Positions 34,404 through 64,000 of a stretch of DNA of 64,000 bases are shown one piece after another. How positions within the stretch are numbered: the stretch's first letter is position 1; each line of letters opens with the position of its first letter. This DNA is from Streptosporangium brasiliense (GTDB lineage: Bacteria; Actinomycetota; Actinomycetes; Streptosporangiales; Streptosporangiaceae), in the NCBI RefSeq assembly GCF_030811595.1, contig NZ_JAUSRB010000001.1, positions 744,001-808,000 of the forward strand, given 5' to 3'. The notes beneath the pieces were generated by a model. The model was not told the origin of the DNA. It worked only from the letters and a program-made list of their open reading frames with translations, and searched no databases. The translations under genes and the position numbers were made by a program.

Positions 34404-34412
34404 GTGTTGCCT

Positions 34413-35390
34413 TTACGGGCAGTTGAGCGCTGCCTGAAGTGCGGTGAGGTTCTGGCGCATGGCGGACAGGTAGTCGCCGCCCGCCGGCTGGCTTTCGACC
34501 GGGTCCAGGACCGCGGTCTTGGCCCCGACCTCCTGGGCGAGAACCTCGGCGACCTTGGGGCTGACGAGGGTCTCGGTGAAAATCGTAGTCACTTTCTCCT
34601 GCTTGGACACTTTCGCCACTTCGGCGAGGCGGGCGGGAGAGGGCTCGGCGTCCGGGTCGAGGCCGCTGACCCCGATCTGGTGCAGTCCGTAGCGGTCGGC
34701 GAGATAGCCGAACGCGGTGTGGCTGGTGACGATCGCCTTCGACCCGCACGCGCTCAGGCCCCGGGCCAGCTCGCCGTCGAGGGCCGTGAGGTCGGCCGCG
34801 GTCTTGGCGGCGCGGTCCTTGTAGCCCTGCGCGTGCGCCGGGTCGACGGCGGCGAGCTTCTCGCCGAGCTGGGTGGCGACGGTCGCGAAACGGGACGGGT
34901 CAAGCCATAGGTGCGGGTCGTAGGCGAGGTCGTGCCCGTGCTCCTCCTCACCCGGGTGGGCCTCCTCCTCCGCGTGCTCGTCGCCGGCGACCGCCGGGAG
35001 GGTCTTCACCGCCGCCGCCGCGTCGAAGCCCCGGCCGGCGGCGTGCTGCTCGACCGCCTCGTCCACGGCGGGCTGCACGCCCTTGATGTAGGCGACCAGG
35101 GAGGTCTCCTCCAGCCCGGCCACCTGGAGCGGGGACAGCTCCAGGTCGTGCGGCTCGACGCCGGGCTTGGTCAGGCCCGTGACGGTGACGTCGGGGCCGC
35201 CCACCCGCTCGGCCAGCCACTGCAGCGGATACATGGCGGCGGTGACGTCGGGCTTGCCTCCCTGCGCGCCGCCCGGCCGGGCGGAGTCGGCTGAGCCGGA
35301 ACCACAGGCGGCGGTGGCGGTGAGAACGGTCGCGAGAGCGAGCAGGGCCGCGCCGCGCATGCGCATACGTCGGGAGAAGTCGGACATCAT
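34413..35390 (-). CDS. znuA: Zinc ABC transporter substrate-binding lipoprotein ZnuA
   Basis: A 325-residue metal-binding lipoprotein of the cluster 9 family. The signal peptide ends in a lipobox-like TAAC followed by a Gly/Ser linker. The His/Glu-rich loop around residues 135-155 (EEAHPGEEEHGHD) is the typical zinc-scavenging loop of ZnuA proteins, and conserved His blocks such as EPHDLELSP and DPHLWLDP follow. A near-perfect Zur box begins 22 bases upstream of the ATG. Confidence 0.94.
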   Translation of the reverse strand: MMSDFSRRMRMRGAALLALATVLTATAACGSGSADSARPGGAQGGKPDVTAAMYPLQWLAERVGGPDVTVTGLTKPGVEPHDLELSPLQVAGLEETSLVAYIKGVQPAVDEAVEQHAAGRGFDAAAAVKTLPAVAGDEHAEEEAHPGEEEHGHDLAYDPHLWLDPSRFATVATQLGEKLAAVDPAHAQGYKDRAAKTAADLTALDGELARGLSACGSKAIVTSHTAFGYLADRYGLHQIGVSGLDPDAEPSPARLAEVAKVSKQEKVTTIFTETLVSPKVAEVLAQEVGAKTAVLDPVESQPAGGDYLSAMRQNLTALQAALNCP

Positions 35391-48762: not shown

Positions 48763-49899
48763 TCAGCCGCCGACGGACACCAGCACGTCCTGCGCGCGGT
48801 GGTCGGACAGGCCATGGGGATCCAGGAGGCCGTAGTCGTGGACGGTGGCCGCCGAGGTGAAGGTCCAGTCGAGCTGCCACAGGGCCGGCCCGCCGGCCGG
48901 CCAGGAGGCGGGCAGCAGGTCGGGGGAGGCGCGGTTGGCGTTGGAGAGCCGGCCGGACAGCCACCCCAGGTCGCCCATGGCGTAGGTGGTGTTGAAGTCG
49001 CCGGTGACGACGAGCGCGCCGCGGTTGGCGCCGACGTCGGCCTCCAGGCCGTCGAACTGTGCCTGGCGGGCGGCGTCGCGGTCCCGTAACCCGGTGTAGA
49101 ACCGCGAGGTCAGCGGGCTGTCGTCCAGCATGTACTGGGTGGGGACGTGCACGTTGTAGACCGACAGCACGGAGGCGCCGACCCGCAGGTCGGTCCGTAG
49201 GACCTTGGCCAGGTCGAACGCCGCCCGCCACGGGGAGCCGGGGCCGAGGACCCCGGCCGGCCCCAGCGCCCGGGCCGAGACGATGGGCAGGCGGGACAGT
49301 GTGACCAGCTCGCCGTTCACCGCGAGGTGGTATCCGGGGAACTCCCGGCGCAGCCGTGCCAGGTCGTCGACCTGGCGCGGGGCGCCGCCGGACCAGTGCA
49401 GATACTCCTGGAGCGCGTAGACGTCGGCGTCGCGGGTCCTGAGGAAGGCGTAGAAGCGGTCCGGGTCGTCGTCCTGGTCCCAGTATTCGGTGTTCCACGA
49501 CAGTACGCGGAGCGCGCCGGCCGGGGCGGCGGCCGCGGTGCCGCCGGTCAGCGCGCCGGGGTTGAGCCCACTCTGGCCCGCGCCGAGGAGGAGGGAGGCG
49601 GCCGCCAGGACCGCGCACCACCGCCGGGTCCGGCCGGCCCGGCCGGTCAGCGGCACGGCGGCCAGCAGCAGGAGCGGCGCGGCGAGATAGACCAGCGGCG
49701 GCACGAGGTCCGGTACCAGCCACAGCCAGAACCGGCCCGACAGCAGGTGGTGCAGGACGACGAACGCCAGCCACGCGGCGGCGGCCCAGGCGAGCGCCCG
49801 GGCCCGCCGCCGGGGCGTACGGCCGGCCGGCGCGGGCGGCCGCCGCGCCGCGGCGCCTGTCATGTCCGCCGTCTCCGCTCCGCCGTACACGCCCTTCAT
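48763..49899 (-). CDS. Membrane EEP-family phosphatase, VanJ-like (intact)
   Basis: A 378-residue protein with about three N-terminal membrane segments (up to about residue 110) and a C-terminal endonuclease/exonuclease/phosphatase domain. Its catalytic residues are intact: SWNTE, ALQE, TGDFNTT and SDHR. This architecture is that of VanJ/StaP, outward-facing lipid-diphosphate phosphatases linked to teicoplanin resistance. It is the last gene of the surface-glycan operon, so it may recycle a polyprenyl diphosphate or trim a lipid intermediate. The ATG at 49899 overlaps the preceding stop (ATGA); an ATG 12 codons later has a better GGAG site and is an alternative. Confidence 0.82.
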   Translation of the reverse strand: MKGVYGGAETADMTGAAARRPPAPAGRTPRRRARALAWAAAAWLAFVVLHHLLSGRFWLWLVPDLVPPLVYLAAPLLLLAAVPLTGRAGRTRRWCAVLAAASLLLGAGQSGLNPGALTGGTAAAAPAGALRVLSWNTEYWDQDDDPDRFYAFLRTRDADVYALQEYLHWSGGAPRQVDDLARLRREFPGYHLAVNGELVTLSRLPIVSARALGPAGVLGPGSPWRAAFDLAKVLRTDLRVGASVLSVYNVHVPTQYMLDDSPLTSRFYTGLRDRDAARQAQFDGLEADVGANRGALVVTGDFNTTYAMGDLGWLSGRLSNANRASPDLLPASWPAGGPALWQLDWTFTSAATVHDYGLLDPHGLSDHRAQDVLVSVGG

Positions 49900-50927
49900 C
49901 CTCCGCTCCGCAGCACGGCCGGGGCCGGGACGTCGTAGACCCCGCGGAAGCGCCGGGACACCAGCCACTGCGCCGCCCCGGCGGCCACGCCACCGATGAT
50001 GACGAGGTTCACCAGGAAGTGCACGCCGACGAAGAACAGGCCGAAGAGCGGGCAGCGCCGGGCGAACACATACCGGTACATGCCCGCGTCACAGGCCAGT
50101 GAGACGGCCAGCCAGAGCACCGGTACGGCGGCGGCAGCGGGGCCCAGGAGCAGGGGCAGCGGCAGGGTGAGGGCCGCGAACGCCGCCGCCAGGGAGGCCC
50201 AGGCCCGGGAGGCGGTCTCGTAGCCCCGCGCGAACCTGCGCCGCCGGGCGTACAGGGGCACGCGCAACCGGCCGCGGTGGAAGAGTTTGCGCAGCAGCGC
50301 CCCCAGCTCGCGGTCGTGGCCCATCCGGCCGCGCACGGCCGAGGTGATCACGACGGTCCGGCGCAGGCTGAGCCGCCGGCCGTAGTCGACCTCCTCGGTG
50401 TGGCGCAGCAGCGGGTTGAACGGCCCCGTCTCGGCGAAGACGTCCGCGCGGATCGCGAACATCGCCGACCACAGGAAGGAGACCTCGCCCTCCGAGCCGA
50501 TCGACCAGTAGTGGTGCTGCAGGGCGCGGTAGTCCTCGGTCCGGGTGGAGCGGATCAGCGGTTCGGGGTCCTCGATGCCGCAGACGGCGCCGAGGCCGGG
50601 GTCGGCCTCCAGGAGCGCCACCGCGGTGGCCACCGCGTCGGGGGCCAGCGCCACGTCGGAGTCGACGAAGAACAGGATCTCGCCGGCCGCCCGGGCGGCC
50701 CCGGTGTTGCGGGCCACCGCGGAGCCGCCGTTGGCCGGGGTCCGGACGACGGGCACCCCCATGGACTCCGCGATCGACACCGATCCGTCGGTGCTGCAGT
50801 CGTCCACCACCATGATCTCCAGGGGGGAGTGGGTCTGCTCCCGCAGGGCCGCCAGGCACAGCGGCAGGAACCGCGCGTGGTTGTAGTTGGGCACGATGAC
50901 GGTGACCAGTGGACGGTCCGGTCCCAT
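49896..50927 (-). CDS. GT2 glycosyltransferase with C-terminal membrane segments
   Basis: A 343-residue family 2 glycosyltransferase: GT-A fold start (VTVIVPNYNHARFLPLCLAAL), VVDDCSTDGS and the metal-binding DSD of FFVDSDVAL. About three hydrophobic segments follow residue 240, so it is membrane-anchored with a cytoplasmic active site. It is a paralogue of the two GT2 genes at 54354 and 55368 in the same operon. The donor and acceptor are unknown; polyprenyl-linked acceptors are likely from context. Confidence 0.88.
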   Translation of the reverse strand: MGPDRPLVTVIVPNYNHARFLPLCLAALREQTHSPLEIMVVDDCSTDGSVSIAESMGVPVVRTPANGGSAVARNTGAARAAGEILFFVDSDVALAPDAVATAVALLEADPGLGAVCGIEDPEPLIRSTRTEDYRALQHHYWSIGSEGEVSFLWSAMFAIRADVFAETGPFNPLLRHTEEVDYGRRLSLRRTVVITSAVRGRMGHDRELGALLRKLFHRGRLRVPLYARRRRFARGYETASRAWASLAAAFAALTLPLPLLLGPAAAAVPVLWLAVSLACDAGMYRYVFARRCPLFGLFFVGVHFLVNLVIIGGVAAGAAQWLVSRRFRGVYDVPAPAVLRSGG

Positions 50928-50930
50928 GGG

Positions 50931-52262
50931 TTACCCCGCTTTCGGATTCTGGTCCGGGTTCGGATGACGGTCCGGGGCGCGGCGCGCGGACGGCCCGGCG
51001 CCGCGGGCGCTCTCCCCGGCGGCCGGTGAGACGACCACGTCCTGCAGATGGTGGGTGGACATCCCCTCGGGGGAGCGCAGCTCGTAGCGGTGCACGCGCA
51101 GGCCGGGCGAGGTGAGGGTCCAGTCCATCCGCCACAGCCGCAGCCCCGCGAAGGTGAGCGTCGCCGGGTACGGTGACCGGCCGGCGCGCGCCGCGTCGGC
51201 CAGGCCCGCCAGCCGCCGCGCGTGTCCCGTGCCGGGCAGCGTGTTGAGGTTGCCGGAGACCAGCACGGGGTTGCGGTTACGGCCGAGATCGGCGGCCAGC
51301 GCGTCGAACTGGGCCGTCCGCGCGGTGTCCAGCGCCGCTATGGACCGGTAGAACTCCCGGCTCAGCGGGCTGGAGCTGAGGTAGAGCATGTCGTAGAAGT
51401 GCACGTTGTACACCGAGACCAGGCGTCCGCCGACCCGCAGGTCGGTGCGGAGGGCCGCGTCCGTCCAGGAGGGCGCGAGCGGGTTCGGGTCCGCCCCCAG
51501 CGCCGCCTGGCCCGCCACGGGGAGGCGTGAGATCGTCAGCAGGCCGCCGGCGGTCGCGATGTGGTGGCCGGGGAACTCGCTCCGCAGCCGCTCCCCGTCC
51601 CGCAGGGGCAGCGGGGCCCCGGGGCCGCACCCCGAGTGCTCCTGGAGCAGGTAGACGTCGGCGTCGAACCCTTTCAGGTAGGCGAAGAAGCGGCCGGGGT
51701 CGTCGGTGGTGTTCCAGCAGTAGGTGTCCCAGGAGACGACGTGGAGCGCGCCGGGCGGGGCGGGCCCGTCCCCGGCCCACGCCCAGGGGGCGCGCGGGTT
51801 CAGCCCCGCCTGGTCCAGGCCGAGGACGAGGGCGGCCGCGGCGAGCAGGGCCGTCCACGCGCGGACGGTCCGGGCGGTCCGGACGCGGCACAGCCGGAGC
51901 ACCGCGAGGGCCGCGAGCAGCGCCGCCGGCAGCAGCGCGAACAGCAGGGGCGGCACAATGAGATCGGGGACGACCCACACCCAGGTGCGGCCGGTGAGCA
52001 GCCGGCGCAGCGCGATGAGCGCCACCTGCGCCGCCGCCAGGCTGACCAGCACCCGTTCGAGGCGGGACAGCCGCGTGCGGGCGAGCAGGAGCATCGCCAC
52101 CGCCCCGAGCACCAGCAGCGGCCCGAGGCAGAACATCAGGAGCGGCAGCGCGCCCCCCCACCACCAGAACCTGCCGGTCAGCCAGTTGGCCAGGGCGGAC
52201 AGCAGCCACACCGCCGACACCCCAAGCGCCACCCGCACCGCCCAGCGCCCCGCCACGGTCAT
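50931..52262 (-). CDS. VanJ-like EEP paralogue with lost catalytic residues
   Basis: A 443-residue paralogue of the EEP protein at 48763, with four to five N-terminal membrane segments and a C-terminal EEP domain. The catalytic set is altered: SWNTE has become SWDTY, TGDFN has become SGNLN, and SDH has become STH, while LQE is kept. It is therefore predicted to be inactive as a phosphatase, perhaps a lipid-binding or regulatory partner of the intact copy. It overlaps the methyltransferase stop (ATGA). The C-terminal tail is Arg/Pro-rich and disordered. Confidence 0.8.
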   Translation of the reverse strand: MTVAGRWAVRVALGVSAVWLLSALANWLTGRFWWWGGALPLLMFCLGPLLVLGAVAMLLLARTRLSRLERVLVSLAAAQVALIALRRLLTGRTWVWVVPDLIVPPLLFALLPAALLAALAVLRLCRVRTARTVRAWTALLAAAALVLGLDQAGLNPRAPWAWAGDGPAPPGALHVVSWDTYCWNTTDDPGRFFAYLKGFDADVYLLQEHSGCGPGAPLPLRDGERLRSEFPGHHIATAGGLLTISRLPVAGQAALGADPNPLAPSWTDAALRTDLRVGGRLVSVYNVHFYDMLYLSSSPLSREFYRSIAALDTARTAQFDALAADLGRNRNPVLVSGNLNTLPGTGHARRLAGLADAARAGRSPYPATLTFAGLRLWRMDWTLTSPGLRVHRYELRSPEGMSTHHLQDVVVSPAAGESARGAGPSARRAPDRHPNPDQNPKAG

Positions 52263-53335
52263 GCCGCCGTCCCCGCCGTCCCCGCCGTCCCCGCTGTTTC
52301 CGCCGCCTCCGCCGTGCCGGGCGCCCGGTCGCGGATGCGCAGCCAGAACGACGCCGGGCGGTAGGACTCGGTGAGCCCCAGGCGGTGCCAGAGCGGCTCC
52401 ACCAGCCCGCGCAGCCGCGCGTCACCGTCGATGAACGCGTTCGGCAGCTCGGTGTCGAACCGGGCCGGGTCGGCCAGGAGGAAGGCCGCGAGCAGATACT
52501 GCTCGGAGTAGTGCCGCCAGCGCCACTCGGGCGGGTAGTCGCTGGGCAGCAGGATGTCGTGCAGCTGCACCAGGACGCCCGGCCGCAGCAGCGGCAGGAT
52601 CTCGAAGAAGAAGACGGTCACGTCCGATCCCATGAAGACCCGGTGCGACCCGTCGAGGAAGACGATGTCACCGGCCTCCAGGTCGGCGAACAGCCCCGGG
52701 TCCACGCGCTCCAGCGGGCTGCGGACCACCGTGTCGCACAGCGCGTCGACGGTGGCGCGTGGTGCCGGGTCGATCGAGGTGACGTGGGTGCGCAGGCCGT
52801 GGTCGTCGATCGCGCGGCGGACGAACTTCGTGGAGTTGCCCGAGCCGATCTCGACGTACCGCCGCGGCGCGGCCTCGGTGAGGAAGCCGTACAGCGCGAG
52901 CGCGTCCAGCGGCGGCAGCCAGCCGTTGTCCCAGTACGGCGTGGTGCCGCCCGGGTGCTCCCGCACCGGGATGGCGGCCAGGCGCTGTTCCAGGGCGAGG
53001 AAGCGGGTGAGCCGCTCGGCGTAGCGGGCCCGGCCCCGTTCGAGCAGCGCCGCGATCTGCGGGTGGTCCGGCCTGCCGTACCCGAAGCGCGGCTCCGGCC
53101 GGGCGGGGTGGTCGATGAAGATCGGCCGGCGCAGGCCGAAGGCGGACAGGACCGTGCCGTGCACCGCCGGGTGCCGCTCCAGCCACGCGAAGGGCCGGTC
53201 GGCGAGGGGCAGCGCGGCCAGCGCCCGCAGCAGGGGTCCGCTCACCCGCCCGGCGGGGAGCTGGCGGACGAGGTGGCGGAGCTGCTCGCGGCCCGGGGAG
53301 GCCGGCGGCGGGCCGCTGTGCGAGGTCGATGTCAT
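52259..53335 (-). CDS. Class I SAM-dependent methyltransferase
   Basis: A 358-residue methyltransferase with the SAM-binding VEIGSGNSTKFVRRAI motif at about residues 160-176 and a following acidic IDP and DIVFLDGSH block, like the Methyltransf_24 group. Its position among glycosyltransferases suggests O-methylation of a sugar or lipid. The last residues are a Thr/Ala/Gly repeat tail encoded by a 9-bp tandem repeat. ATGA overlaps at both ends tie it to its neighbours. Confidence 0.82.
   Translation of the reverse strand: MTSTSHSGPPPASPGREQLRHLVRQLPAGRVSGPLLRALAALPLADRPFAWLERHPAVHGTVLSAFGLRRPIFIDHPARPEPRFGYGRPDHPQIAALLERGRARYAERLTRFLALEQRLAAIPVREHPGGTTPYWDNGWLPPLDALALYGFLTEAAPRRYVEIGSGNSTKFVRRAIDDHGLRTHVTSIDPAPRATVDALCDTVVRSPLERVDPGLFADLEAGDIVFLDGSHRVFMGSDVTVFFFEILPLLRPGVLVQLHDILLPSDYPPEWRWRHYSEQYLLAAFLLADPARFDTELPNAFIDGDARLRGLVEPLWHRLGLTESYRPASFWLRIRDRAPGTAEAAETAGTAGTAGTAA
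52266..52310. repeat. 9-bp tandem repeat at methyltransferase 3' end
   Basis: GCCGTCCCC occurs three times perfectly at 52266-52292, and two degenerate copies follow to 52310. It encodes the repetitive C-terminal tail and lies immediately upstream of the next gene's start. Confidence 0.85.
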
Positions 53336-54357
53336 GATGGGGAGGCTCCTTGCTGTCGGGTGAGTCGTGTGTGCTGGTCCCCGGCGGGCGGGGTGGGGCG
53401 GTGACCGCGCCGGCCGGTCCGGGCGAGCCAGCCCAGGACGGCGGCGGTCGACGCCAGGTCGGCCACGGTGATCAGCACCCGGCTCAGCGCCACCAGCGTG
53501 ACCAGGCCGCTGCCGGTCAGCAGGGTGGCGACGGTGAGCCCGAGGACGGCCTCGCGCGGGCCCAGCCCGGAGGGCATCACCAGGGTGAGGACCCCGGCCA
53601 CGGTGGACAGCGCGAAGCCGCCGACCCCCACGGTCAGGGCCCCGGACAGGGGCGCGCCGAGCGCCACCGCGAGCACCGTGACGTGCAGGCCGCTGATCAG
53701 CCAGCCGGCCGCCATCAGCCCGGTCACCGTGAGCAGGACGCGCCGTCCGGGCAGGACCGGCGGGACGTCGCCGCGGCGCAGCACGCGCTGGGCCACGCCG
53801 AGCAGCCTCTCCAGCAGCCGGGGCAGGGCCGCCGGCACGAGCGCGGCGGCCAGCGCCGGCAGCAGCGCCCACCACAGCGCGTCGGCCGCCACCAGCCAGG
53901 GCAGGGCGACCAGCCCGACCGCGAGCCCGGCGACCACCGCCAGTCCCTGGCTGGCCACGAATGCCCCGGCCAGCCTGGCCGGGGGCTCGCCGAGCGGCCT
54001 GGCCTGCGCGGCGTGCGCCACCGCGGGCCAGACGCCGCCCGGCAGGTAGCGGGTGAGCCCGGCGAGGAAGAACACCCGGACCGCCACCGGCCAGGGCAGG
54101 CGGGTGCCCAGCCCGGCCAGCAGCATGCGCCAGCCGATGAAGCCGGGCACCCCGCCGACGGCCGCCAGCGCCGCGGCGAGCAGGGCGTTCCCCCAGCCCA
54201 CCAGCCGCAGGCTCGCGCCCAGGCCATGGCGGACCCGCCACAGCTGGTAGCCGAGGAAGCCGGCCACGAGCAGGTAGGCGGCCACGCGCAGCCCGGCGAG
54301 CGCCCGGCGGCCCGCCGGGGCGGCCAGGAGGCGGCGGGCGCCCCGCACGGCCGTCAC
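53332..54357 (-). CDS. Lysylphosphatidylglycerol-synthase-TM (UPF0104) family membrane protein
   Basis: A 341-residue integral membrane protein with about eight to nine hydrophobic segments and the family blocks LTRYLPGGVWP and GPREAVLGL. The LPG_synthase_TM/UPF0104 group includes flippase domains; proteins of this type are often found in glycolipid clusters and may move a lipid intermediate across the membrane. The GTG start (54357) overlaps the preceding gene (GTGA) and its stop overlaps the methyltransferase ATG. Confidence 0.82.
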   Translation of the reverse strand: MTAVRGARRLLAAPAGRRALAGLRVAAYLLVAGFLGYQLWRVRHGLGASLRLVGWGNALLAAALAAVGGVPGFIGWRMLLAGLGTRLPWPVAVRVFFLAGLTRYLPGGVWPAVAHAAQARPLGEPPARLAGAFVASQGLAVVAGLAVGLVALPWLVAADALWWALLPALAAALVPAALPRLLERLLGVAQRVLRRGDVPPVLPGRRVLLTVTGLMAAGWLISGLHVTVLAVALGAPLSGALTVGVGGFALSTVAGVLTLVMPSGLGPREAVLGLTVATLLTGSGLVTLVALSRVLITVADLASTAAVLGWLARTGRRGHRPTPPAGDQHTRLTRQQGASPS

Positions 54358-55364
54358 GCGGGCGCCTTGGCGTACATGCGGCGGAACGAGCGCGAGGTCA
54401 GCCACTGCACGATCCCGACGCCCGCCCCGGCCGCGATGGTCAGGTTGACGAGGAAGTGCGTGCCGACGAAGAACAGCCCGAAGCCCGCGCCCCGGGTGGC
54501 GAACACGTATCGGTACATCTTCCGGTCGATGCCCAGCCAGGCGGCCAGCAGCAGGGCCGGCAGCGCCGCCGACCACGCGGCGCCGGTCAGCAGCGGCACG
54601 GGCAGGGCGAGGAGCGTCAGCGCGGCGGCCAGGCTCGCCGCCGACTCCGGCGAGCCGACCACGCCCGCGGCCCGCCGGGGCTGCAGGAAGAACGGCACGT
54701 GCACGCGGGTGCGGGTGAAGACCTTGCGCAGCGCGATGCGCAGGGTGGCGTCGTCGTCGTGGCGCCCGCGCACGGCCGAGGTGAGCAGCACGGTGTAGCG
54801 CTCGTTGAGCCGCTCGCCGATGTCGGCGCCCTCCGACTGGGTGAGCTCGGCCGTCCACGGCCCGACCTCGGCCCACACGGCGGCGGGGAAGGCGATGATC
54901 GCGACGGGCAGGAATCCCTTGATCGGGCCCTCGGCGACCAGGTACCAGTAGTGGCGGTAGAGGGTGCGGTACTCCTTGACCAGGCTGTCACGCCGCAGCG
55001 GGACCGCCTCGTAGTTGCCGGAGACCGCGCCGATGCCGGGGTCGGACCCCAGCAGCGCCACGGCCTGGGCGACCGCGTCGGGGGCGAGCGCGACGTCGGA
55101 GTCGAGGAAGAACAGCACCTCGCCCCGCGCGTGCGCCACGCCGAGGTTGCGCGCGGCGGACACCCCGCTGTTGCGCGGCGTGCTGAGCACCCGCACCCCG
55201 TGGGACTCGGCGACCCGTACGGAGTCGTCGGTGCTGCAGTCGTCCACGTAGATGATCTCGATGGGGGAGTACGTCTGCTCCTGGACCGAGCGCAGGCACA
55301 GCCCGAGCACGTCGGCGTAGTTGTAGTTGGGGATGATGACCGAGACGAGGGGCGTGGCGGTCAT
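54354..55364 (-). CDS. GT2 glycosyltransferase with C-terminal membrane segments
   Basis: A 336-residue family 2 glycosyltransferase: VSVIIPNYNYADVLG, YVDDCSTDDS and FFLDSDVALAPDAV, then about three membrane segments after residue 240. It is a close paralogue of the protein at 49896 (both end in a MYRYVFA ... FGLFFVG ... HFLVNL block). It lies three bases after the upstream GT2 gene and overlaps the flippase-like gene. Confidence 0.88.
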   Translation of the reverse strand: MTATPLVSVIIPNYNYADVLGLCLRSVQEQTYSPIEIIYVDDCSTDDSVRVAESHGVRVLSTPRNSGVSAARNLGVAHARGEVLFFLDSDVALAPDAVAQAVALLGSDPGIGAVSGNYEAVPLRRDSLVKEYRTLYRHYWYLVAEGPIKGFLPVAIIAFPAAVWAEVGPWTAELTQSEGADIGERLNERYTVLLTSAVRGRHDDDATLRIALRKVFTRTRVHVPFFLQPRRAAGVVGSPESAASLAAALTLLALPVPLLTGAAWSAALPALLLAAWLGIDRKMYRYVFATRGAGFGLFFVGTHFLVNLTIAAGAGVGIVQWLTSRSFRRMYAKAPA

Positions 55365-55367
55365 GGT

Positions 55368-56399
55368 TCACCAGCCTTTCGAGGGGTCGGCCGGGCGCCG
55401 GCGCCCGGCCGCGCGCCGGGAGGGCCCGAAGGAGGAGTCGAGCGTGGCGCGCACCCATCCGGTGGCGGCGCCCGACAGCAGCGCCGCGTGCGTGAGCAGG
55501 TGCACCCCGGTGAAGAAGGCCAGGAACGCCGGGCCCTTCTCCCGCAGCACGAACCGTGACAGCGGCGGATCGCAGAGCGCGAACGCGGCGAGGCAGGCGC
55601 CGGTCAGCGACAGCGCGGGCGGCCACACCAGGCCGGCGGGGACGCTCGCCGCGGCCAGCGCGACGGCGAGGAGACCCGGCACGCGGTTGACCTTCAGGGC
55701 GTCGGGCCGCAGCCGGTTGCGGGCGGAGAAGCGCAGCAGTTGCGCGCGCCGGTACTGCTCGGCCAGCAGCGGCAGGAGCCGGTCGGCCTCGTCGTGGCGG
55801 CCGGTGACCTCGGCCGAGATCCGGATGCGGTGCCGCGCCAGCAGTCGCTCGCTGTACTCGTCGTCCTCGGCGCAGCGCAGGTTCTCGTCGAACGGCCCCA
55901 CCTCGTCGAAGACCGCCCGTGGGACGGCGGCGAGGGCGAAGACCGCCGTCGCCGTCGGACCCGCCGCCCGGGTGAGGGCGTGGTGCAGGTGCAGCGTCCG
56001 GTAGACCTCCACGGGACCGTCGTCGATGAGCGGTTCCTTGGCGTACACGCCGTAGACGCACCCGCATCCGGGGTCCTCGCCGAGCAGCCGCACCGCGTTG
56101 AGCACCGCGTCCGGGGCCAGGCCGACGTCGGAGTCGAGGAAGAACAGGATCTCGCCGCGGCCCGCCGCCGCCCCGGTGTTGCGGGCCGCCGACACGCCCC
56201 GGTTGCGGGGGTGCGCCACCAGCCGGCACGGGAAGGCGCCCGCGATCTCCCGGGACCGGTCGGTGCTGGCGTCGTCGACGACGATCACCTCCAGACTGGG
56301 GTAAGTCTGCGCCAGCGCCGCCGTGAGGCAGGCGCGCAGCGTCTTGGCCGAGTTGTGCACCGGGACGACGACCGAGACCAGGGGGTACGGCCGGGACAT
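55368..56399 (-). CDS. GT2 glycosyltransferase with C-terminal membrane segments
   Basis: A 343-residue family 2 glycosyltransferase: VSVVVPVHNSAKTLRACL, VVDDASTDRS and FFLDSDVGLAPDAV, then membrane segments near the C-terminus and a basic tail. The third GT2 of the operon and the most divergent. The ATG at 56399 has AAAGGCGG upstream and was preferred; another ATG at 56429 overlaps the UbiA stop (ATGA) and would add ten residues. Confidence 0.87.
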   Translation of the reverse strand: MSRPYPLVSVVVPVHNSAKTLRACLTAALAQTYPSLEVIVVDDASTDRSREIAGAFPCRLVAHPRNRGVSAARNTGAAAGRGEILFFLDSDVGLAPDAVLNAVRLLGEDPGCGCVYGVYAKEPLIDDGPVEVYRTLHLHHALTRAAGPTATAVFALAAVPRAVFDEVGPFDENLRCAEDDEYSERLLARHRIRISAEVTGRHDEADRLLPLLAEQYRRAQLLRFSARNRLRPDALKVNRVPGLLAVALAAASVPAGLVWPPALSLTGACLAAFALCDPPLSRFVLREKGPAFLAFFTGVHLLTHAALLSGAATGWVRATLDSSFGPSRRAAGRRRPADPSKGW

Positions 56400-56425
56400 G
56401 ACTGCCGCCTTTCGGGTCGTGGGGT

Positions 56426-57487
56426 TCATCGCAGGACCGTCGCGGCCAGCGCGGGGTGGTGGGCCAGCACGAGCGTCACGCCGAGCACGACGGCCAGCGC
56501 CACCGCCGTGGCGGCCAGACCCCGGTCGCGCAGCACCCCCCGCACCGGATCGCCGCCGCCCCCCTCGACGAGCACCACCTGCAGGTAGCGGAACAGGGCG
56601 AAGATCACGAACGGCGTGGCCAGCAGCATCGCCGGCTGGCCGTAGGGGCCGAACGGCGCCTCGGTGCGCAGGTACATCAGGCCGGCGACCGCGGTGAGCA
56701 CGCAGGTGAGCTGGAGCATCTGGTCGGCCAGCCCCACCGAGTAGCCGCGCAGCGCGGGCCGGTGGGCGGTCCCGGACTCCAGCAGCTCCTGGCGCCGCTT
56801 GCCGGTCACCAGCAGCAGCGACACCGAGAACACCGCGACCAGCAGCCACCCGGAGACCGGTTCCCCGATCGCCGCGTACCCCTGGACGACGCGTAGCGCG
56901 AAGCCCAGCGCGACGGCGCACACGTCGATCAGGGGGATGTGCTTGAGCACGCGGGTGTAGGCGACGTTGAGCGCCAGGTAGGCCAGCAGGGGCCAGTACG
57001 GCCGGCCGGGACCGGAACCGGCCACCACGCCGAGCAGCGCGAGCAGGGCGGCGCAGTACAGGCAGGCGGCCCAGACCGGCACCCGCCCGGCGGCGACCGG
57101 ACGGTGGCGCTTGACGGGGTGGTGGCGGTCCCGGTGCCGGTCGGCGATGTCGTTGCCGACGTACACGCAGGCCCCGGCCAGGACGAAGCCGGCCACGGCC
57201 CAGCCCGTCGCGCCGAGCATCGCGAGGGTCCAGACGCTCGCGTCGGCGAGCGCGAGGGGCACCAGCAGGACGCTCTTGGCCGCGTGCAGCGGCCGTATCA
57301 GGGCCGCCAGGTCCGCCGGCAGCCCCGGCCGCCGGCCCGGCGCACCGTCCGCCGTGCCGCCTGGCGCACCGTCCGCCGTGCCGCCTGGCGCATCGTCCGC
57401 CGTGCCGTCCGGCGCACCGTCGGCGAGCGGCTCCGGCGGCCGGGCCACCCCCTGGGAGCCGGGAGGTTCGATGACACGCATATGCAC
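56426..57487 (-). CDS. UbiA-family phosphoribosyl/prenyl transferase, DPPR synthase-like
   Basis: A 353-residue polytopic UbiA-fold enzyme. The block GNDIADRHRDRHHPVKRHRP at about residues 111-130 is the signature of decaprenyl-phosphate phosphoribosyltransferase (Rv3806c type) and not of quinone prenyltransferases. It would transfer phosphoribose from PRPP to polyprenyl phosphate, the first step of polyprenyl-phosphoarabinose synthesis. The N-terminal 55 residues are disordered and contain a GGTADGAP repeat. The DprE1 oxidase partner is not in the window; the adjacent NAD-dependent epimerase could act downstream. Confidence 0.85.
   Translation of the reverse strand: MHMRVIEPPGSQGVARPPEPLADGAPDGTADDAPGGTADGAPGGTADGAPGRRPGLPADLAALIRPLHAAKSVLLVPLALADASVWTLAMLGATGWAVAGFVLAGACVYVGNDIADRHRDRHHPVKRHRPVAAGRVPVWAACLYCAALLALLGVVAGSGPGRPYWPLLAYLALNVAYTRVLKHIPLIDVCAVALGFALRVVQGYAAIGEPVSGWLLVAVFSVSLLLVTGKRRQELLESGTAHRPALRGYSVGLADQMLQLTCVLTAVAGLMYLRTEAPFGPYGQPAMLLATPFVIFALFRYLQVVLVEGGGGDPVRGVLRDRGLAATAVALAVVLGVTLVLAHHPALAATVLR
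57339..57425. repeat. 24-bp coding tandem repeat in UbiA N-terminus
   Basis: Units at 57339-57362 and 57363-57386 are identical, the third (57387-57410) differs at a few positions, and a partial fourth follows. Each 24-bp unit encodes eight residues (GGTADGAP), so copy-number change keeps the frame. Confidence 0.9.
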
Positions 57488-57499
57488 CTCCGGCCGGGA

Positions 57500-58546
57500 T
57501 CAGAAGAAGACTTTCGCGAGCGACAGCGCACCCTGCCGCCACGCGTCGCGGCTGGTCCGGCCGGCCGCGGGCGCCCCGCGGCCCTGCTGCCGCCGGTTCT
57601 CCCGCCACCAGGCGTAGGTGCGCAGGATCGCCTCCTGGTTGGAGAAGCGGGGCTCGAAGCCGAGACGGTCCCGGGCCTTGTCGATGCTGACGTAGGAGTC
57701 CGCGAGCAGCTTGTACAGCAGCCGCTCGTACACCGGGGACAGCCCCGTCCTGCCCAGCAGCCGCAGGGCGGCCAGGGTCGGCCCGGCCGGGAGCGGCACC
57801 AGCCGCCTGCCGTGGCCCGCCGCGTCGAGCACCGCCTGGAAGTCCTCGCGCAGGGTGCCGAACGCGGCGGCGGCGATGTTGAAGGTGTCGCCGGCCACGT
57901 CCGCGGGCGCCTGGAGCACGCGCAGGATCGCCTCGACCAGGTCGTCGATCGCGAGCATCTGGATGCGCACGTCGCCGCGGCCCAGCAGCGGGAAGTTACG
58001 GCCCTCCTCGGCCCATTCGAAGAGCATCGAGAACAGTCCCATGCGGCCGGGGCCGAGGAAGGTCTTGGGCCGCAGGACCGGCACGCACATCCCCTCCTCC
58101 CGGAACGCCTCCGCCACCTCCTCCGCCGCCGCCTTGGCCCGGCTGTAGGGGTCGACCGGCTCCCGGGGATGGCTCTCGGCCGTGGGGACCGTCCGCGGCA
58201 GGCCGTACACCGCCGTGGAGGAGACGTGCACGGCGCGCGGCACGCCGGCCCGGCGGGCGGCCTCCAGCACGCTGCGGGTGCCTCCGACGATCACGTCGCG
58301 GATCTCGCCGGCCGGGTAGCTCGGCAGCGCCGCGGCGCAGTGCACCACCGCCTCGGCCCCGGTGACCAGTCCGGTCATCAGCGGGGTGTCACGGATGTCG
58401 CCGATCGCGTACCGCGCCCGCGGGCACCCGTCGGAGCGCGGGCGCAGGTCCACGCCCAGCACGTCGTACCCCGCCTCCGTCAGGCCCCGGACCAGGTTCC
58501 CGCCCAGCATCCCGGAGCTGCCCGTGACTACGACCCGGACGGCCAT
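57500..58546 (-). CDS. NAD-dependent epimerase/dehydratase (extended SDR)
   Basis: A 348-residue extended short-chain dehydrogenase: Rossmann motif TGSSGMLGGNL at residues 9-19, the catalytic Ser-Thr in HVSSTAVYG and Tyr-x-x-x-Lys in YSRAK. It acts on an NDP-sugar or a lipid-linked sugar. Its place directly upstream of the UbiA gene suggests it supplies or epimerises the sugar of that pathway. It overlaps the aminotransferase gene by 19 bases. Confidence 0.88.
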   Translation of the reverse strand: MAVRVVVTGSSGMLGGNLVRGLTEAGYDVLGVDLRPRSDGCPRARYAIGDIRDTPLMTGLVTGAEAVVHCAAALPSYPAGEIRDVIVGGTRSVLEAARRAGVPRAVHVSSTAVYGLPRTVPTAESHPREPVDPYSRAKAAAEEVAEAFREEGMCVPVLRPKTFLGPGRMGLFSMLFEWAEEGRNFPLLGRGDVRIQMLAIDDLVEAILRVLQAPADVAGDTFNIAAAAFGTLREDFQAVLDAAGHGRRLVPLPAGPTLAALRLLGRTGLSPVYERLLYKLLADSYVSIDKARDRLGFEPRFSNQEAILRTYAWWRENRRQQGRGAPAAGRTSRDAWRQGALSLAKVFF

Positions 58547-59967
58547 CGCGGCGCCACCTTCTCCCGCACGAACCGGGTGAGCAGCCGCGGCAGGCCCTGG
58601 TCCAGGGTGGCGGCGAGACTGTCGAGGAAGTATTCGACGTCCGCGGGCTCGACGACCAGCGGGGGTGCGGCGACCAGCGGGTTGTCCCCGTTCAGCGTGT
58701 AGTAGGCGTAGACGCCGTGGTCGCGGTAGAGCGCGTCGACGACCGAGCAGGTGATCAGCTTGATGCGGAAGTTGGGGTCCTTGGCCAGGCCGCCCGGGGC
58801 GAGCCTCGCGGCGAGGTCGAGGATCTTCGGCCCGCCGTCCAGGAAGATCCCGTACAGCGCGCCCGCGCCCCGCACCGCGGCCACCGTGTCCGGGTGCCCC
58901 TTGCGGATCCGCTCCAGGCCCGGGGCGAGGACGCGCTCGATCTCGCGCGCCCGCCCCGGGTAGTCGTCCTCGACGGCGACGTTGACCGCCTCGATCGCGG
59001 TGGCGGTCTCCTCGCCGAACCCGTAGTACGTCGTGCTGGTGCTGTGCATCACCGAGTCGGCGAGGTTGTCGTAGGCCCTGCGGAACACCCGCTCGCGCGC
59101 GATGTACGCCGAGATCGACGACTTGCCGCCGCCGAACGACTTCGACGTGGTCACGATGTCCGGGACGAGGCCGGGATGGCGCATGAAGTAGAAGAGGCTG
59201 CCGGTCTTGCCCCAGCCCGTGTAGATCTCGTCGAAGATCAGCATGATGTCGTCCGCGTCGCAGAGCTCCCGCAGCCCGCGCAGGAACTCCTCGGAGCAGG
59301 AACGCATGGTCGAGGCGCTGAACGGCTCGATGATGATCGCGTACACGTCGCAGCCGCCGTCGCGGGTGCGTGCCGCGGCGGTCGCGGCGCGCACGGCGTC
59401 CAGGTCGCCGTAGGGGAAGGTGCCCACCCCCGGGATGCCCGGGAAGCGGAAGCGGTCCGGGGTGCCGGTGAGGGTGCCGGAGCCCAGCAGCTTGCCGTGG
59501 AAGGCGATGTCGGCGCGGAGGATCCGCTGCCGGCGCCCGCCGTGGTACTTGTAGGCGAGCTTGACCGCGCCCTCCACCGCCTCGGCGCCGGAGTTGGGGA
59601 AGAACGACATGTTCAGGTCGCCGGGCAGCAGCTGGGCGAGGTTGTGGCCGAGCGCCGCCACGTAGGGTGAGAAATAGGTCTTGTGCACCTCCATCCTGTG
59701 CGCCTCCTGGAAGCGCCGGCGGGCGGCCAGCACGCGGGGGTGGTTGTGGCCGTGGTTGAGCACGCCGACCCCGCCGGTGAAGTCGAGGATCCTCCGGCCG
59801 CCCCGGGTCCAGATCCAGGCGCCCTCGGCGCGCTCGACGAGCTCCCGGCCGAAACCGAACGAGGTCATCAGCGACACCTGGCTGCGGCTGACGTGTTTGC
59901 GGTAGAGGTCGTGAACGTCTCTGGCGGTGAGCCGCTCGCATTCTTCGAGGCTGATCAGTTCGGACAC
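58528..59967 (-). CDS. Class III PLP aminotransferase
   Basis: A 479-residue fold-type I aminotransferase of class III: PNSGAEAVEGAVKLAYKYHG, IFDEIYTGWGKTG and the PLP lysine in TTSKSFGGG. The GTG at 59967 has AAGGAG seven bases upstream; an upstream open frame starting with an ATG at 60024 lacks support. It is the first gene of the ten-gene leftward operon. Substrate unknown: an amino sugar precursor, a diamino acid or an aldehyde are all possible. Confidence 0.85.
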   Translation of the reverse strand: MSELISLEECERLTARDVHDLYRKHVSRSQVSLMTSFGFGRELVERAEGAWIWTRGGRRILDFTGGVGVLNHGHNHPRVLAARRRFQEAHRMEVHKTYFSPYVAALGHNLAQLLPGDLNMSFFPNSGAEAVEGAVKLAYKYHGGRRQRILRADIAFHGKLLGSGTLTGTPDRFRFPGIPGVGTFPYGDLDAVRAATAAARTRDGGCDVYAIIIEPFSASTMRSCSEEFLRGLRELCDADDIMLIFDEIYTGWGKTGSLFYFMRHPGLVPDIVTTSKSFGGGKSSISAYIARERVFRRAYDNLADSVMHSTSTTYYGFGEETATAIEAVNVAVEDDYPGRAREIERVLAPGLERIRKGHPDTVAAVRGAGALYGIFLDGGPKILDLAARLAPGGLAKDPNFRIKLITCSVVDALYRDHGVYAYYTLNGDNPLVAAPPLVVEPADVEYFLDSLAATLDQGLPRLLTRFVREKVAPRWPSGS

Positions 59968-60345
59968 GCGCACTCTCCTTTCCCCGTCGCCGGGGGATCG
60001 GTGCTCATCGGGACGCGGCGCCACGGTTCCGGCGGCCCCGGAACGGCGATCGGCCCCGGGCCCCCTCCGGAAGTGAAGTGGAGTCGCATCGACGATGCGG
60101 CCCGGCTGTCAAGGGCGGGTAAAGGCGCGGCTTGACACCGTCGAGTCACGCGTTTCCAGATGATGAGACAGATGGGGAGCCGCGAGCCCGACGTCCGGCG
60201 TGTCCGTTCTCCGGCGCGGGCCCGGCCGGTCCCGCGGGCGCCGTCTCACCATTCGAGAACGCTCCGGTCCGGTACGGCGTGCCGTGGGAGGGCGGGGGCG
60301 GACGCCCACGGCTCCGCCGTCCGCCGTCCGATGCCGGGGGCGTGA
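59968..60345. other. Intergenic region of divergent operons
   Basis: No gene is supported here. The only structure seen is an inverted pair TGTCAA (60107-60112) and TTGACA (60132-60137), 19 bases apart, which could be back-to-back -35 boxes or an operator. Confidence 0.4.
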
Positions 60346-60808: not shown

Positions 60809-63800
60809 ATGCGCTTTAGCGTCCTCGGCACGCTCGAGGTCCGCTCCGGTGACCACCGGCTGGTCCGGCTGGGCGCCGCCAAGCAGCGCACCCTGCTGGC
60901 GGTGCTGCTGCTGAACGTCAACCGGCCCGTCCCCGCCGACCGGCTGGTCGAGGCGCTGTGGCCGCAGCGGCCGCCCCGCACCGCCGCGGTCGCGCTGCGC
61001 ACCTACGTGTCCGCGCTCCGGCAGGCCCTCGGGCCGGCCGACCGGACCGAGCCCCCGCTGCTGTGCACCGTGCCGGGCGGCTACCAGATGCGGCTCTCCC
61101 CGGCCGACCTCGACCTGCTGACCTTCGAGGAGCTCGCGGCGCAGGGACGCCAGGCGCTGACCGACGGGCGGCCGGGACTGGCGGCCGAGCGGCTGCGGCG
61201 GGCGCTCGGGCTCTGGCGCGGCCGGCCGTTCGAGGACGTCGCGCTGGACCCGGCACTGGACCAGGCGCTGGGCACCGAGCTGGTCCGGCTGGAGGAGCGC
61301 AGGCTCGCCGCGCAGGAGACCTGGATCGACTCCCAGCTCGCCCTCGGCCACCACGGCGACCTGCTCGCCGAGCTGGGGGTGCTGGTCGCCGAGGAGCCGC
61401 TGCGGGAGCGATTACAGGCCCAGTGGATGCTCGCCCTGTACCGTTCGGGCCGTCAGGCCGACGCGCTGCGCGCCTACCGGGAGCTGCGCCGGCAGCTCGT
61501 CCACGAGCTCGGCGTGGAGCCGAGCCCGCCGCTGCAGCGGCTGCACCGCCAGATCCTGGCCGGTCACGCCGGCCTGGCCCCGCCCGCGGACGCCCCCGCC
61601 GGCCTGCCCGGAGCCCCGTCCGGTGCCTCGCCCGGCGGTCCGTCCGGCGGTCCGTCCGGCGGTCCGTCCGGTGTCGTGTCCGGCGGTCCGTCCGGGGCCG
61701 CCTCCGGTCCGTCCGGTGGTCTGTCCGGAGCCGCGTCCGGGGCCGCCTCCGGTCCGTCCGGTGGTCTGTCCGGAGCCGCGTCCGGGGTCGCCTCCGGAGC
61801 CGCGTCCGGAGTCCCGGCCGGGGCCGCCTCCGGGGCCGCTTCCGGTGGCCCGGCCGGTGGCCCGGCCGGAGCGCCGGCGGTACCCAGGCAGCTCCCCCGG
61901 GACATCGCCAGCTTCACCGGCCGGGCCGCGGAGCTGGCCGACCTGCTGGCGCTCGCCCATCCGGCGGACCGCCCCGACGCGCCCGCGCCGGGTCCGGGGG
62001 CCCCGGCGTCCGGCCCCGAGGTGCCGGTGATCGGCGCCATCCGCGGCATGGCCGGGGTCGGCAAGACCACGCTCGCCGTGCACGCCGCGCACCTCCTGGC
62101 GGACCGCTTCACCGACGGGCAGCTCTTCGTCGACCTGCACGGCTTCACCCAGGGGGTGGCGCCGGTCGACCCGGCCGACGCGCTGGACCAGATGCTGCGC
62201 TCCCTGGGCGTGCCCGGTGAGCAGATCTCGCACGACCTCGACTCCCGGGCCGCCCTCTACCGGACCCGGCTGGCCGGCCGGCGCGTGCTCATCCTGCTGG
62301 ACAACGCGCTCGGCGAGGCCCAGGTGCGGCCCCTGCTGCCCGGCACTCCCGGCTGCCTGACGCTGATCACCAGCCGCAGGCGCCTGGCCGGCCTCGACGA
62401 CGTCCGGACGCTCTCCCTGGAGGTCCTCCCGCCCGGCGACGCGCTGACGCTGTTCACCCGCACCGCCGGTGAGCAGCGCCTGGCCGGCCAGCCGCCCGGG
62501 CTGCTCACCGAGATCGTCGAGCTGTGCGGCCGGCTGCCGCTGGCGATCCGCATCGCCGCCGCCCGGCTGCGCGTCAGGCCCGGCTGGACCCCGGCGGACC
62601 TGGCCGGCCGGCTCCGCGACCACCAGCACCGGCTCAGCGAGCTCGAAGTCGGCCAGCTCAGCATCACGGCGACCATGGACCTGTCCTACCACCACCTCAG
62701 CCCCGGCAGGCAGGGCATGTACCGGCTGCTCGGCCTGCACCCGGGGCCCGACATCGAGCGGCACGCGGCCGCGGCCCTGGCGGGCACCACCCCCCAGCAC
62801 GCCGGCCATCTCCTCGACGACCTGGTCGACGCCCACCTGCTGCAGGAACCGGTCCCGGGCCGCTACCGCTTCCACGACCTGGTACGCACGCACGCCACCG
62901 CCACCCTGGCCGACGAGGACGCCGACGCCGACCGGCGCACCGCGCTGATGCGCCTGTTCGACCACTACATCCGCACCGCTTCGGCCGCCGTGGACACGGC
63001 GCACACCTACGAGACCGACCACCCCGTCCGGGCCCGGGGGCAGGACGCCCGCTCCGGGGCCCCCGGGGACCGGGCGCGCGCGTCGGAGTGGCTGGACGCC
63101 GAGCTGACCAACCTGCTCGCCACCGCCGCGTACGCGGCCCGGCACGGCTGGCCCGCCCACGCCCTGCACCTGTGGGCGTCCCTCCACCGCCACCTGCACA
63201 CCCGCGCGCACTACACCCACGCCCGCACCCTGCACGGCAACGCCCTGCACGCCGCCCGCGCCCTCGCCGACCGCGACCGGGAGCTCGCCGCCCTGTGCGG
63301 CCTGGGCGACGTGCATCTCGCCCAGGGGCGGTTCGGGCGGGCCGCCGACTACTTCGAGCGGGCGTTGGAGATCGCCCGGGTGACCGGCAACCGGGACGGG
63401 GAGCTGGGCGCGCTGTGCGGTCTGGGGCACGTGCACCGGGCGCAGGGCTGGTTCGGGCGGGCCGCCGACTGCTTCGAGCGGGCGTTGGAGATCGCCCGGG
63501 TGACCGGCAACCGGGACGGGGAGCTGGGCGCGCTGTGCGGTCTGGGGCACGTGCACCGGGCGCAGGGCTGGTTCGGGCGGGCCGCCGACCACTTCGAGCA
63601 GGCACTGAAGATCGCCGACGTCACCGGCAGCCGCGACGGCGAGCTGCGCGCGCTGACCGGCCTCGGCATCACCCACCTCATGCGGGGCGAGCACCGGCCG
63701 GCCACCGACCGCTACCGCCGCGCCCTGCGGATCGCCCGCCGGATCGGCGACCGCAACGCCCAGTTCGAGGGCCTGTACGGCCTCGGCCGTGTCCACCAGG

Positions 63801-64000
63801 CCACCGGCCGCCCCGACCGGGCCTTCACCTACCACCGGACCGCTCTCGACATCGCCCATGACCTCGGCCACCCGGCGGGCCAGGTGCGCGCCCTGCACGG
63901 CCTGGCCCGCGCCCACCGTGACCTGGGCCGGCACGAGGAGGCCCGCGAGCAGTGGCGGCGTGCCCTGGACATCCTCACCGACCTGGGCGTCCCGGAGGTC
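60809..64000 (+). CDS. AfsR-like SARP regulator with NB-ARC and TPR domains (partial)
   Basis: An open frame from the ATG at 60809 to the window edge (1064 codons, no stop), so the 3' end is missing. Domains: OmpR-type DNA-binding (1-about 90, RFSVLGTLEV ... RLGAAKQRTLLAVLLLN), bacterial activation domain BTAD (about 100-250), a Gly/Ser/Pro/Ala-rich linker (about 252-357), an NB-ARC ATPase with P-loop GMAGVGKTT near 413-421, and C-terminal TPR repeats of 40 residues. This is the AfsR/SARP layout of regulators of antibiotic and surface pathways. It diverges from the glycan operon and is its likely regulator. No strong Shine-Dalgarno site precedes the ATG. Confidence 0.88.
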   Translation, partial: MRFSVLGTLEVRSGDHRLVRLGAAKQRTLLAVLLLNVNRPVPADRLVEALWPQRPPRTAAVALRTYVSALRQALGPADRTEPPLLCTVPGGYQMRLSPADLDLLTFEELAAQGRQALTDGRPGLAAERLRRALGLWRGRPFEDVALDPALDQALGTELVRLEERRLAAQETWIDSQLALGHHGDLLAELGVLVAEEPLRERLQAQWMLALYRSGRQADALRAYRELRRQLVHELGVEPSPPLQRLHRQILAGHAGLAPPADAPAGLPGAPSGASPGGPSGGPSGGPSGVVSGGPSGAASGPSGGLSGAASGAASGPSGGLSGAASGVASGAASGVPAGAASGAASGGPAGGPAGAPAVPRQLPRDIASFTGRAAELADLLALAHPADRPDAPAPGPGAPASGPEVPVIGAIRGMAGVGKTTLAVHAAHLLADRFTDGQLFVDLHGFTQGVAPVDPADALDQMLRSLGVPGEQISHDLDSRAALYRTRLAGRRVLILLDNALGEAQVRPLLPGTPGCLTLITSRRRLAGLDDVRTLSLEVLPPGDALTLFTRTAGEQRLAGQPPGLLTEIVELCGRLPLAIRIAAARLRVRPGWTPADLAGRLRDHQHRLSELEVGQLSITATMDLSYHHLSPGRQGMYRLLGLHPGPDIERHAAAALAGTTPQHAGHLLDDLVDAHLLQEPVPGRYRFHDLVRTHATATLADEDADADRRTALMRLFDHYIRTASAAVDTAHTYETDHPVRARGQDARSGAPGDRARASEWLDAELTNLLATAAYAARHGWPAHALHLWASLHRHLHTRAHYTHARTLHGNALHAARALADRDRELAALCGLGDVHLAQGRFGRAADYFERALEIARVTGNRDGELGALCGLGHVHRAQGWFGRAADCFERALEIARVTGNRDGELGALCGLGHVHRAQGWFGRAADHFEQALKIADVTGSRDGELRALTGLGITHLMRGEHRPATDRYRRALRIARRIGDRNAQFEGLYGLGRVHQATGRPDRAFTYHRTALDIAHDLGHPAGQVRALHGLARAHRDLGRHEEAREQWRRALDILTDLGVPEV
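61694..61783 (+). repeat. 45-bp perfect tandem duplication in SARP linker
   Basis: Two identical 45-bp units (61694-61738 and 61739-61783), each encoding GAASGPSGGLSGAAS, inside a longer low-complexity linker built of GGCGGTCCGTCC and GCCGCGTCCGGG words. Confidence 0.92.
63331..63589 (+). repeat. 120-bp near-identical TPR duplication
   Basis: Bases 63331-63469 match 63451-63589 with a single mismatch (A/G at 63351/63471), a period of 120 bp or 40 residues. Flanking TPR units are much more divergent at the DNA level. Confidence 0.95.

Follow-up and report, generated by a model that had tools for sequence, protein, structure and literature searches.

Gene content and layout of the locus

This study concerns a ten-gene operon in a 64,000-nucleotide stretch of the Streptosporangium brasiliense genome (assembly GCF_030811595.1, contig NZ_JAUSRB010000001.1, positions 744,001 to 808,000), hereafter referred to as the window. 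We read the operon, with a probability of roughly 0.6, as a dedicated pathway, probably under SARP control, that leads to a polyprenyl-phosphate-linked pentose glycoconjugate and is separate from the arabinan pathway. Positions 48763-59967 of the window are filled by ten minus-strand open reading frames (ORFs) with coding-like codon usage, in the order AT, EPI, UbiA, GTa, GTb, FLP, MT, VJ1, GTc and VJ2, with AT at the 5' end. These genes and the two features upstream of them are as follows.

58528..59967, minus strand: AT, class III pyridoxal phosphate (PLP) aminotransferase of 479 aa, by Pfam; PLP lysine and FDE aspartate conserved
57500..58546, minus strand: EPI, extended short-chain dehydrogenase/reductase (SDR), NAD-dependent epimerase/dehydrogenase, by Pfam; TGxxGxLG and YxxxK motifs
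56426..57481, minus strand: UbiA, predicted polyprenyl-phosphate phosphoribosyltransferase, DPPRS-like
55368..56429, minus strand: GTa, GT2 glycosyltransferase with membrane segment(s) at the C-terminus
54354..55364, minus strand: GTb, GT2 glycosyltransferase with membrane segments at the C-terminus
53332..54357, minus strand: FLP, MprF-like lipid flippase homologue, from a weak Pfam match (LPG_synthase_TM) and a structural model
52259..53335, minus strand: MT, Methyltransf_24 S-adenosylmethionine-dependent methyltransferase, accessory, in 11 of 68 full loci
50931..52262, minus strand: VJ1, membrane EEP paralogue with a degenerate active site (Pfam Exo_endo_phos)
49896..50927, minus strand: GTc, GT2 glycosyltransferase with membrane segments at the C-terminus
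48763..49899, minus strand: VJ2, predicted membrane-anchored EEP (DNase I/sphingomyelinase-fold) phosphodiesterase or phosphatase, catalytic residues intact
60107..60136, minus strand: conserved element GTCAAG-N4-GCCTTTACC-N-G-N3-TTGACA, candidate operator or promoter
60809..64000, plus strand: SARP/AfsR-type regulator (Trans_reg_C, BTAD, NB-ARC and TPR), continuing past the window end

Six of the nine junctions within the operon are overlaps, of 19 bp for AT/EPI and 4 bp each for UbiA/GTa, GTb/FLP, FLP/MT, MT/VJ1 and GTc/VJ2, and the other three are gaps of 3 to 18 bp, which is the layout of a translationally coupled operon. The identical ten-gene set is carried in unchanged order by Herbidospora, Acrocarpospora and Microbispora, and because of this repetition the arrangement is more than chance. 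The ORFs, their junctions, the Pfam domains and the recurrence in relatives confirmed the leftward run of ten overlapping or closely spaced genes described in the initial annotation. The functional unit very probably also includes the divergent SARP-type regulator that starts at 60809. A tRNA-Val called by ARAGORN at 51748-51817, inside VJ1 but antisense to it, was set aside as a likely false positive.

The operon UbiA and the separate arabinan enzymes

A phmmer comparison of the operon UbiA with the PDB gave significant matches only to chains of Rv3806c, the DPPR synthase (DPPRS; decaprenyl-phosphate phosphoribosyltransferase), at 3e-27. A UbiA family profile, built with one canonical DPPRS member included, matched the structure 8j8j at 1e-64 and the best other UbiA structure at 2e-10. 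The residues of Rv3806c that contact phosphoribosyl pyrophosphate (PRPP) and Mg were taken from the literature (PMC10994848), and the alignment demonstrated that nine of these twelve (R22, K28, Y70, N73, D77, K87, R90, Y138 and K143) are identical in the operon UbiA. Across 38 members of this protein's family these identical contacts are invariant except R22, which is kept in at least 90%. Another contact, Y157, is Phe in the operon protein as it also is in some mycobacteria. By these sequence comparisons UbiA is very probably a polyprenyl-phosphate phosphoribosyltransferase with PRPP as its substrate, and the initial description of the protein as DPPR-synthase-like was borne out. The accompanying statement that DPPR synthase is an enzyme of mycolic-acid bacteria is too narrow, as examples are known from Citrobacter and Pseudomonas (PMC11127046).

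The proposal to look for a separate arabinan DPPRS in the genome led to a complete set. On contig C2 (at about 227 kb; L030:6816-9854) the genes for DPPRS, DprE1 and DprE2 are consecutive, and all three products score above their NCBIfam cut-offs (388 bits against 207, 597 against 500 and 299 against 250, respectively). In a tree of 54 proteins the operon-type UbiA and the canonical DPPRS are split by a branch with 100/100 support. Among 16 genomes of the genus, canonical DPPRS occurs in 12 and the operon-type UbiA in 4. The operon pathway is therefore distinct from the arabinan pathway of the same cell. Two congeners (G013 and G014) have the operon-type UbiA only. The DPPRS-DprE1-DprE2 set is the arabinan donor pathway and an anti-tuberculosis drug target, present here outside the mycolic-acid bacteria.

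These results bear on two alternative explanations of the locus. Homology to DPPRS could mean that the operon supplies the donor for wall arabinan through a redundant DPPR pathway, but the canonical enzymes encoded elsewhere in the genome and the distribution of the two types in the genus make this highly improbable. UbiA could instead be one of the ordinary prenyltransferases, aromatic or lipid, with neighbours that make an unrelated glycolipid. Membership in the UbiA superfamily is general enough to allow this, but the exclusive matching to DPPRS argues against it, as do K28 and Y70, which are invariant here and are not kept by the UbiA superfamily at large (PMC10994848), and we give this explanation very little credence.

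Conservation of the module in actinomycetes

In an effort to evaluate the wider occurrence of these genes, 80 named AT loci were gathered from Streptomyces, Micromonospora, Salinispora, Herbidospora, Microbispora, Kitasatospora, Amycolatopsis and others. The 68 of them that were well flanked contain the SDR and a membrane EEP protein without exception, UbiA in 67, FLP in 65 and GT2 in 64; at least two GT2 genes are present in 59, and MT in 11. The order and direction of the module genes differ between families, which argues for a shared function beyond inherited synteny. As these loci were selected through AT, an independent survey of the order was made. Among its 299 genomes the operon-type UbiA was found in 35, every one of which also has the SDR (36 genomes in total). 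AT was found in 34, 32 of which also have UbiA (Fisher 3e-37, a value that is too optimistic given the relatedness of the genomes). The SDR is thus the tightest partner of UbiA and AT is nearly obligate in the module, with the SDR and UbiA standing without AT in two loci (L114 and L115). Such a tie between SDR and UbiA would be expected of an SDR that modifies the lipid-linked pentose in the manner of Orf13 from Citrobacter O2 (PMC11127046).

Gene fusions further connect the components. Single-frame fusions of GT2 and FLP occur in five loci (Actinokineospora, Longispora, Hamadaea and two Salinispora) and fusions of GT2 and EEP in two (Kitasatospora and Streptomyces), which indicates that the parts belong to one pathway. 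Pfam confirmed one fusion of each kind, in addition to an acyltransferase-GT2 fusion in Nonomuraea. The neighbours that vary include an aldo/keto reductase (46 loci), GT4 (25), polysaccharide deacetylase (12), MMPL (12), methyltransferases (9), GT87 (7, in Micromonosporaceae or Nonomuraea) and sulfotransferase (4), and an acyltransferase is among the tailoring genes of other loci. In L093, L100, L103 and L110 GT4 seemingly takes the place of GT2. A constant core with variable glycosyl and tailoring genes is what one would predict if the loci make a family of related products. The AT-less locus L115 (L115:8450-16996) carries a sulfotransferase, two GT4 genes and a UDP-glucose dehydrogenase, gene content which suggests a sulfated, uronic-acid-containing product. 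The replacement of the flippase by a Wzx-like protein in L118 was considered and dropped, having neither Pfam nor NCBIfam support.

Aminotransferase and SDR

The nearest NCBIfam models of AT are PigE and putrescine aminotransferase, with both scores far under the cut-off. Proteins 83-89% identical to AT occur in Herbidospora, Sphaerisporangium and Acrocarpospora, and AT is also present in Nonomuraea gerenzanensis, in a record that is unannotated there. Class III aminotransferases usually use terminal aldehydes, and the operon has no obvious oxidase that would make one. The pentose- or amino-sugar-containing product suggested initially would draw its amino sugar from AT; the product is perhaps aminated. 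A 63% identical AT was found in a different setting (L111:12769-18439 and L112), where its neighbours are GT2, a transporter-like membrane protein and two flavin oxidoreductases, one of the GMC type and one amine-oxidase-like; UbiA and the SDR are both absent from these two loci, in which an aminated lipid-linked sugar might be made by other means. At its C-terminus the SDR has a tail of high conservation (...WRQGxLxxxKVFF, 57500-57560) in which W, Q, G, L and F are invariant. This tail is unusual-looking for the fold and may serve to dock the protein to the membrane or to bind a partner.

The putative flippase and the membrane EEP proteins

FLP matched Pfam LPG_synthase_TM with 29.7 bits, slightly below the cut-off of 33.4. 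Its structural model (pLDDT 86.5) gave Foldseek matches of probability 1.0 that were all MprF, a confident prediction of an MprF-like fold which points to a flippase function. The VJ2 model (pLDDT 92.4) consists of helices followed by an EEP domain. Human neutral sphingomyelinase ranks first among its fold matches, which also include a sugar-phosphatase EEP. VJ2 had no Pfam match, and neither VJ1 nor VJ2 had an NCBIfam match. From the positive-inside residue pattern and the model, the EEP domain of VJ2 is predicted to lie outside the cell. The initial annotation called both proteins VanJ-like; the N-terminal transmembrane helices and EEP motifs agree with this, so that the likeness is one of topology and motifs and not of alignment to VanJ.

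The active-site residues of the VJ2 type (N/E/N/H/D/N/D/H) are kept in VJ2. In VJ1 and its nine closest orthologues they read D/E/N/H/N/N/T/H, and these changes (N to D, D to N and D to T) make VJ1 probably catalytically dead. A degenerate EEP protein is thus conserved next to an intact one, and second copies in Streptomyces show another recurring single-residue change.

The regulator and its upstream element

The regulator ORF runs from 60809 to the window end (1064 codons) and is divergent from the operon. A regulator of the same protein cluster is the upstream neighbour of AT in 22 of the loci and is divergent in 14 of these, mostly from Streptosporangiaceae; a few genomes are counted twice among these loci, and the domain content was established by Pfam for the window copy alone. 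The genome holds 40 BTAD matches, so a single adjacency means little, and the conservation of the regulator does not look accidental. The gene is a cluster-situated SARP-type regulator, and most close relatives have kept it as a divergent neighbour. The element at 60107-60136, between the operon and the regulator, is a candidate operator or promoter. An exact match to its pattern occurs only once in the 10.5-Mb genome, and the pattern is also found upstream of AT in Streptosporangiaceae loci. A copy with two mismatches at 34399-34426 lies at a zinc-uptake ABC operon and may be due to chance, as a reversed control pattern also matched.

Proposed pathway

The genes act together, most likely to make a lipid-linked glycan. 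UbiA is strongly predicted from its sequence to transfer phosphoribose from PRPP to polyprenyl phosphate. The 5'-phosphate would then be removed by a phosphatase encoded outside the operon, or extracytoplasmically by VJ2. The SDR, with its strong genetic link to UbiA, would epimerise or oxidise the lipid-linked pentose, and AT may aminate this pentose or a co-substrate. To judge from families and fusions, the membrane-anchored GT2 enzymes (GT4 elsewhere) would add sugars and MT would decorate the product, which the MprF-like FLP would flip outward. VJ2 may cut a phosphodiester or phosphate and in this way release or remodel the product or recycle the carrier, with VJ1 as a putative inactive partner. 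Statements on the structure of the product, the amino-sugar step and the choice between polymer and small molecule are inferences. The glycolipid part of the initial proposal is in keeping with a lipid-linked glycan, while its alternative of a cell surface polymer is unsupported, given that neither the operon nor the conserved core has a gene resembling a polysaccharide polymerase or ligase.

Several observations weigh against this reading. UbiA falls under the NCBIfam DPPRS cut-offs (170.9 against 234 bits for NF008977 and 150 against 207 for NF008978), and we therefore call it DPPRS-like, meaning that it is related to the arabinan enzyme but too divergent to count as its orthologue; it also differs at two contacts (Q135 to N and K208 to P). 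Two steps of the known pathways have no gene in the operon, from which the HAD phosphatase and the GT-C enzyme are both absent: no HAD phosphoribose phosphatase domain was found by Pfam in the operon or among the annotated recurrent gene clusters, and no GT-C in the ten genes or the conserved core, with GT87 present in seven other loci. Two genomes have AT without an operon-type UbiA, so AT may act on another substrate. The loci L031-L110 were picked by AT similarity, and the co-occurrence counts are not phylogenetically independent.

How the lipid-linked pentose would be used can be viewed in more than one way. Serving as a primer, polyprenyl-phosphate-pentose would be extended in the cytoplasm by GT2/GT4, flipped by the MprF-type protein and freed as an (amino)pentose oligosaccharide by the membrane EEP enzyme, a sequence of events that is favoured by the core having no GT-C and that we nevertheless hold to be rather unlikely. 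Serving as a donor, it would be flipped and used outside on a wall glycan by a GT-C encoded elsewhere, with the GT2 enzymes making other polyprenyl-phosphate sugars or the backbone. The combination of predicted PPPRS, SDR epimerase and flippase parallels Citrobacter O2, and GT87 in the seven Micromonosporaceae or Nonomuraea loci favours such a role, but the window operon and conserved core are without GT-C, variable GT2/GT4 genes are always nearby and GT2 is fused to the flippase or EEP; we consider the donor model possible but doubtful. A further explanation is a specialised metabolite, in which VJ2 would cut off the lipid-linked pentose oligosaccharide to yield a small bioactive amino-oligosaccharide and VJ1 and VJ2 would also provide self-protection. 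The SARP-type regulator adjoining many module copies, the patchy distribution and the variable tailoring genes are consistent with this. However, the only conserved exporter is the flippase (MMPL occurs in 12 loci only), surface-glycan clusters of actinomycetes can be patchy and variable too, and SARPs are frequent in this genome, so that we regard it as a tentative alternative. The SARP-type and other regulators and the patchy spread fit a specialised metabolite as much as a structural wall polymer.

Relation to known systems and significance

Lipid-linked pentoses derived from PRPP are known to act as donors for side chains or for arabinan. PPPRS and an SDR epimerase make polyprenyl-phosphate-xylofuranose, and further candidate pentofuranose systems have been stated to exist in Gram-positives (PMC11127046, from 2024). 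With the three-component systems of Citrobacter youngae O1/O2 (PMC11127046) the operon shares a UbiA-type PPPRS (predicted by sequence in our case), an SDR epimerase proposed to act on the lipid-linked pentose and a putative dedicated flippase. In contrast to them, it is without GT-C (GT136) and HAD phosphatase, its flippase is MprF-like whereas theirs is a four-helix transporter, and it adds an aminotransferase, several GT2/GT4 enzymes, membrane EEP enzymes and a SARP-type regulator. The mycobacterial DPA/arabinan pathway (Rv3806c) has the same predicted first reaction, with 9/12 PRPP/Mg contacts in common, but the operon has an extended SDR and not the DprE1/DprE2 pair, and its UbiA stands in a separate clade.

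The ArnBCDTEF pathway makes undecaprenyl-phosphate-aminoarabinose from a pentose derived from UDP-glucuronic acid, with a DegT-type aminotransferase and the GT-C enzyme ArnT, and the Pfam family of ArnD is polysaccharide deacetylase. The operon resembles it in a predicted amino-pentose on polyprenyl phosphate, in GT2 and flippase and, in some module variants, in a deacetylase; it differs in a pentose predicted to come from PRPP, in a class III aminotransferase and in the lack of an ArnT-like GT-C. In VanJ/StaP, N-terminal transmembrane helices precede an EEP domain outside the membrane. These proteins are membrane proteins (PMC4790382) to which VJ2, likewise anchored in the membrane and with an EEP domain predicted to face outward, is likened by topology and EEP motifs, whereas the EEP proteins of the operon are tied to a glycan module and one copy is catalytically degenerate. 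Because the family of Streptosporangium forms sporangia, the Actinoplanes sporangium polysaccharide clusters (PMC13390465) were considered as a match and rejected, the text containing no UbiA, epimerase or phosphoribosyl enzyme. No published description of such a cluster was found in the open-licence literature, which is weak evidence. Compared with known PRPP-based pentofuranose pathways, the module stands apart through its aminotransferase, the family of its flippase, the pair of EEP proteins, a core without GT-C and the regulator.

If our reading of the operon is correct, some twenty actinomycete genera, including many that are known to produce antibiotics, would harbour lipid-linked pentose glycoconjugates of an unstudied class, and MprF-type and EEP membrane proteins would gain roles in glycolipids. 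Should the pentose serve as a primer, the module would represent a new way of starting and releasing a lipid-linked glycan or specialised metabolite.

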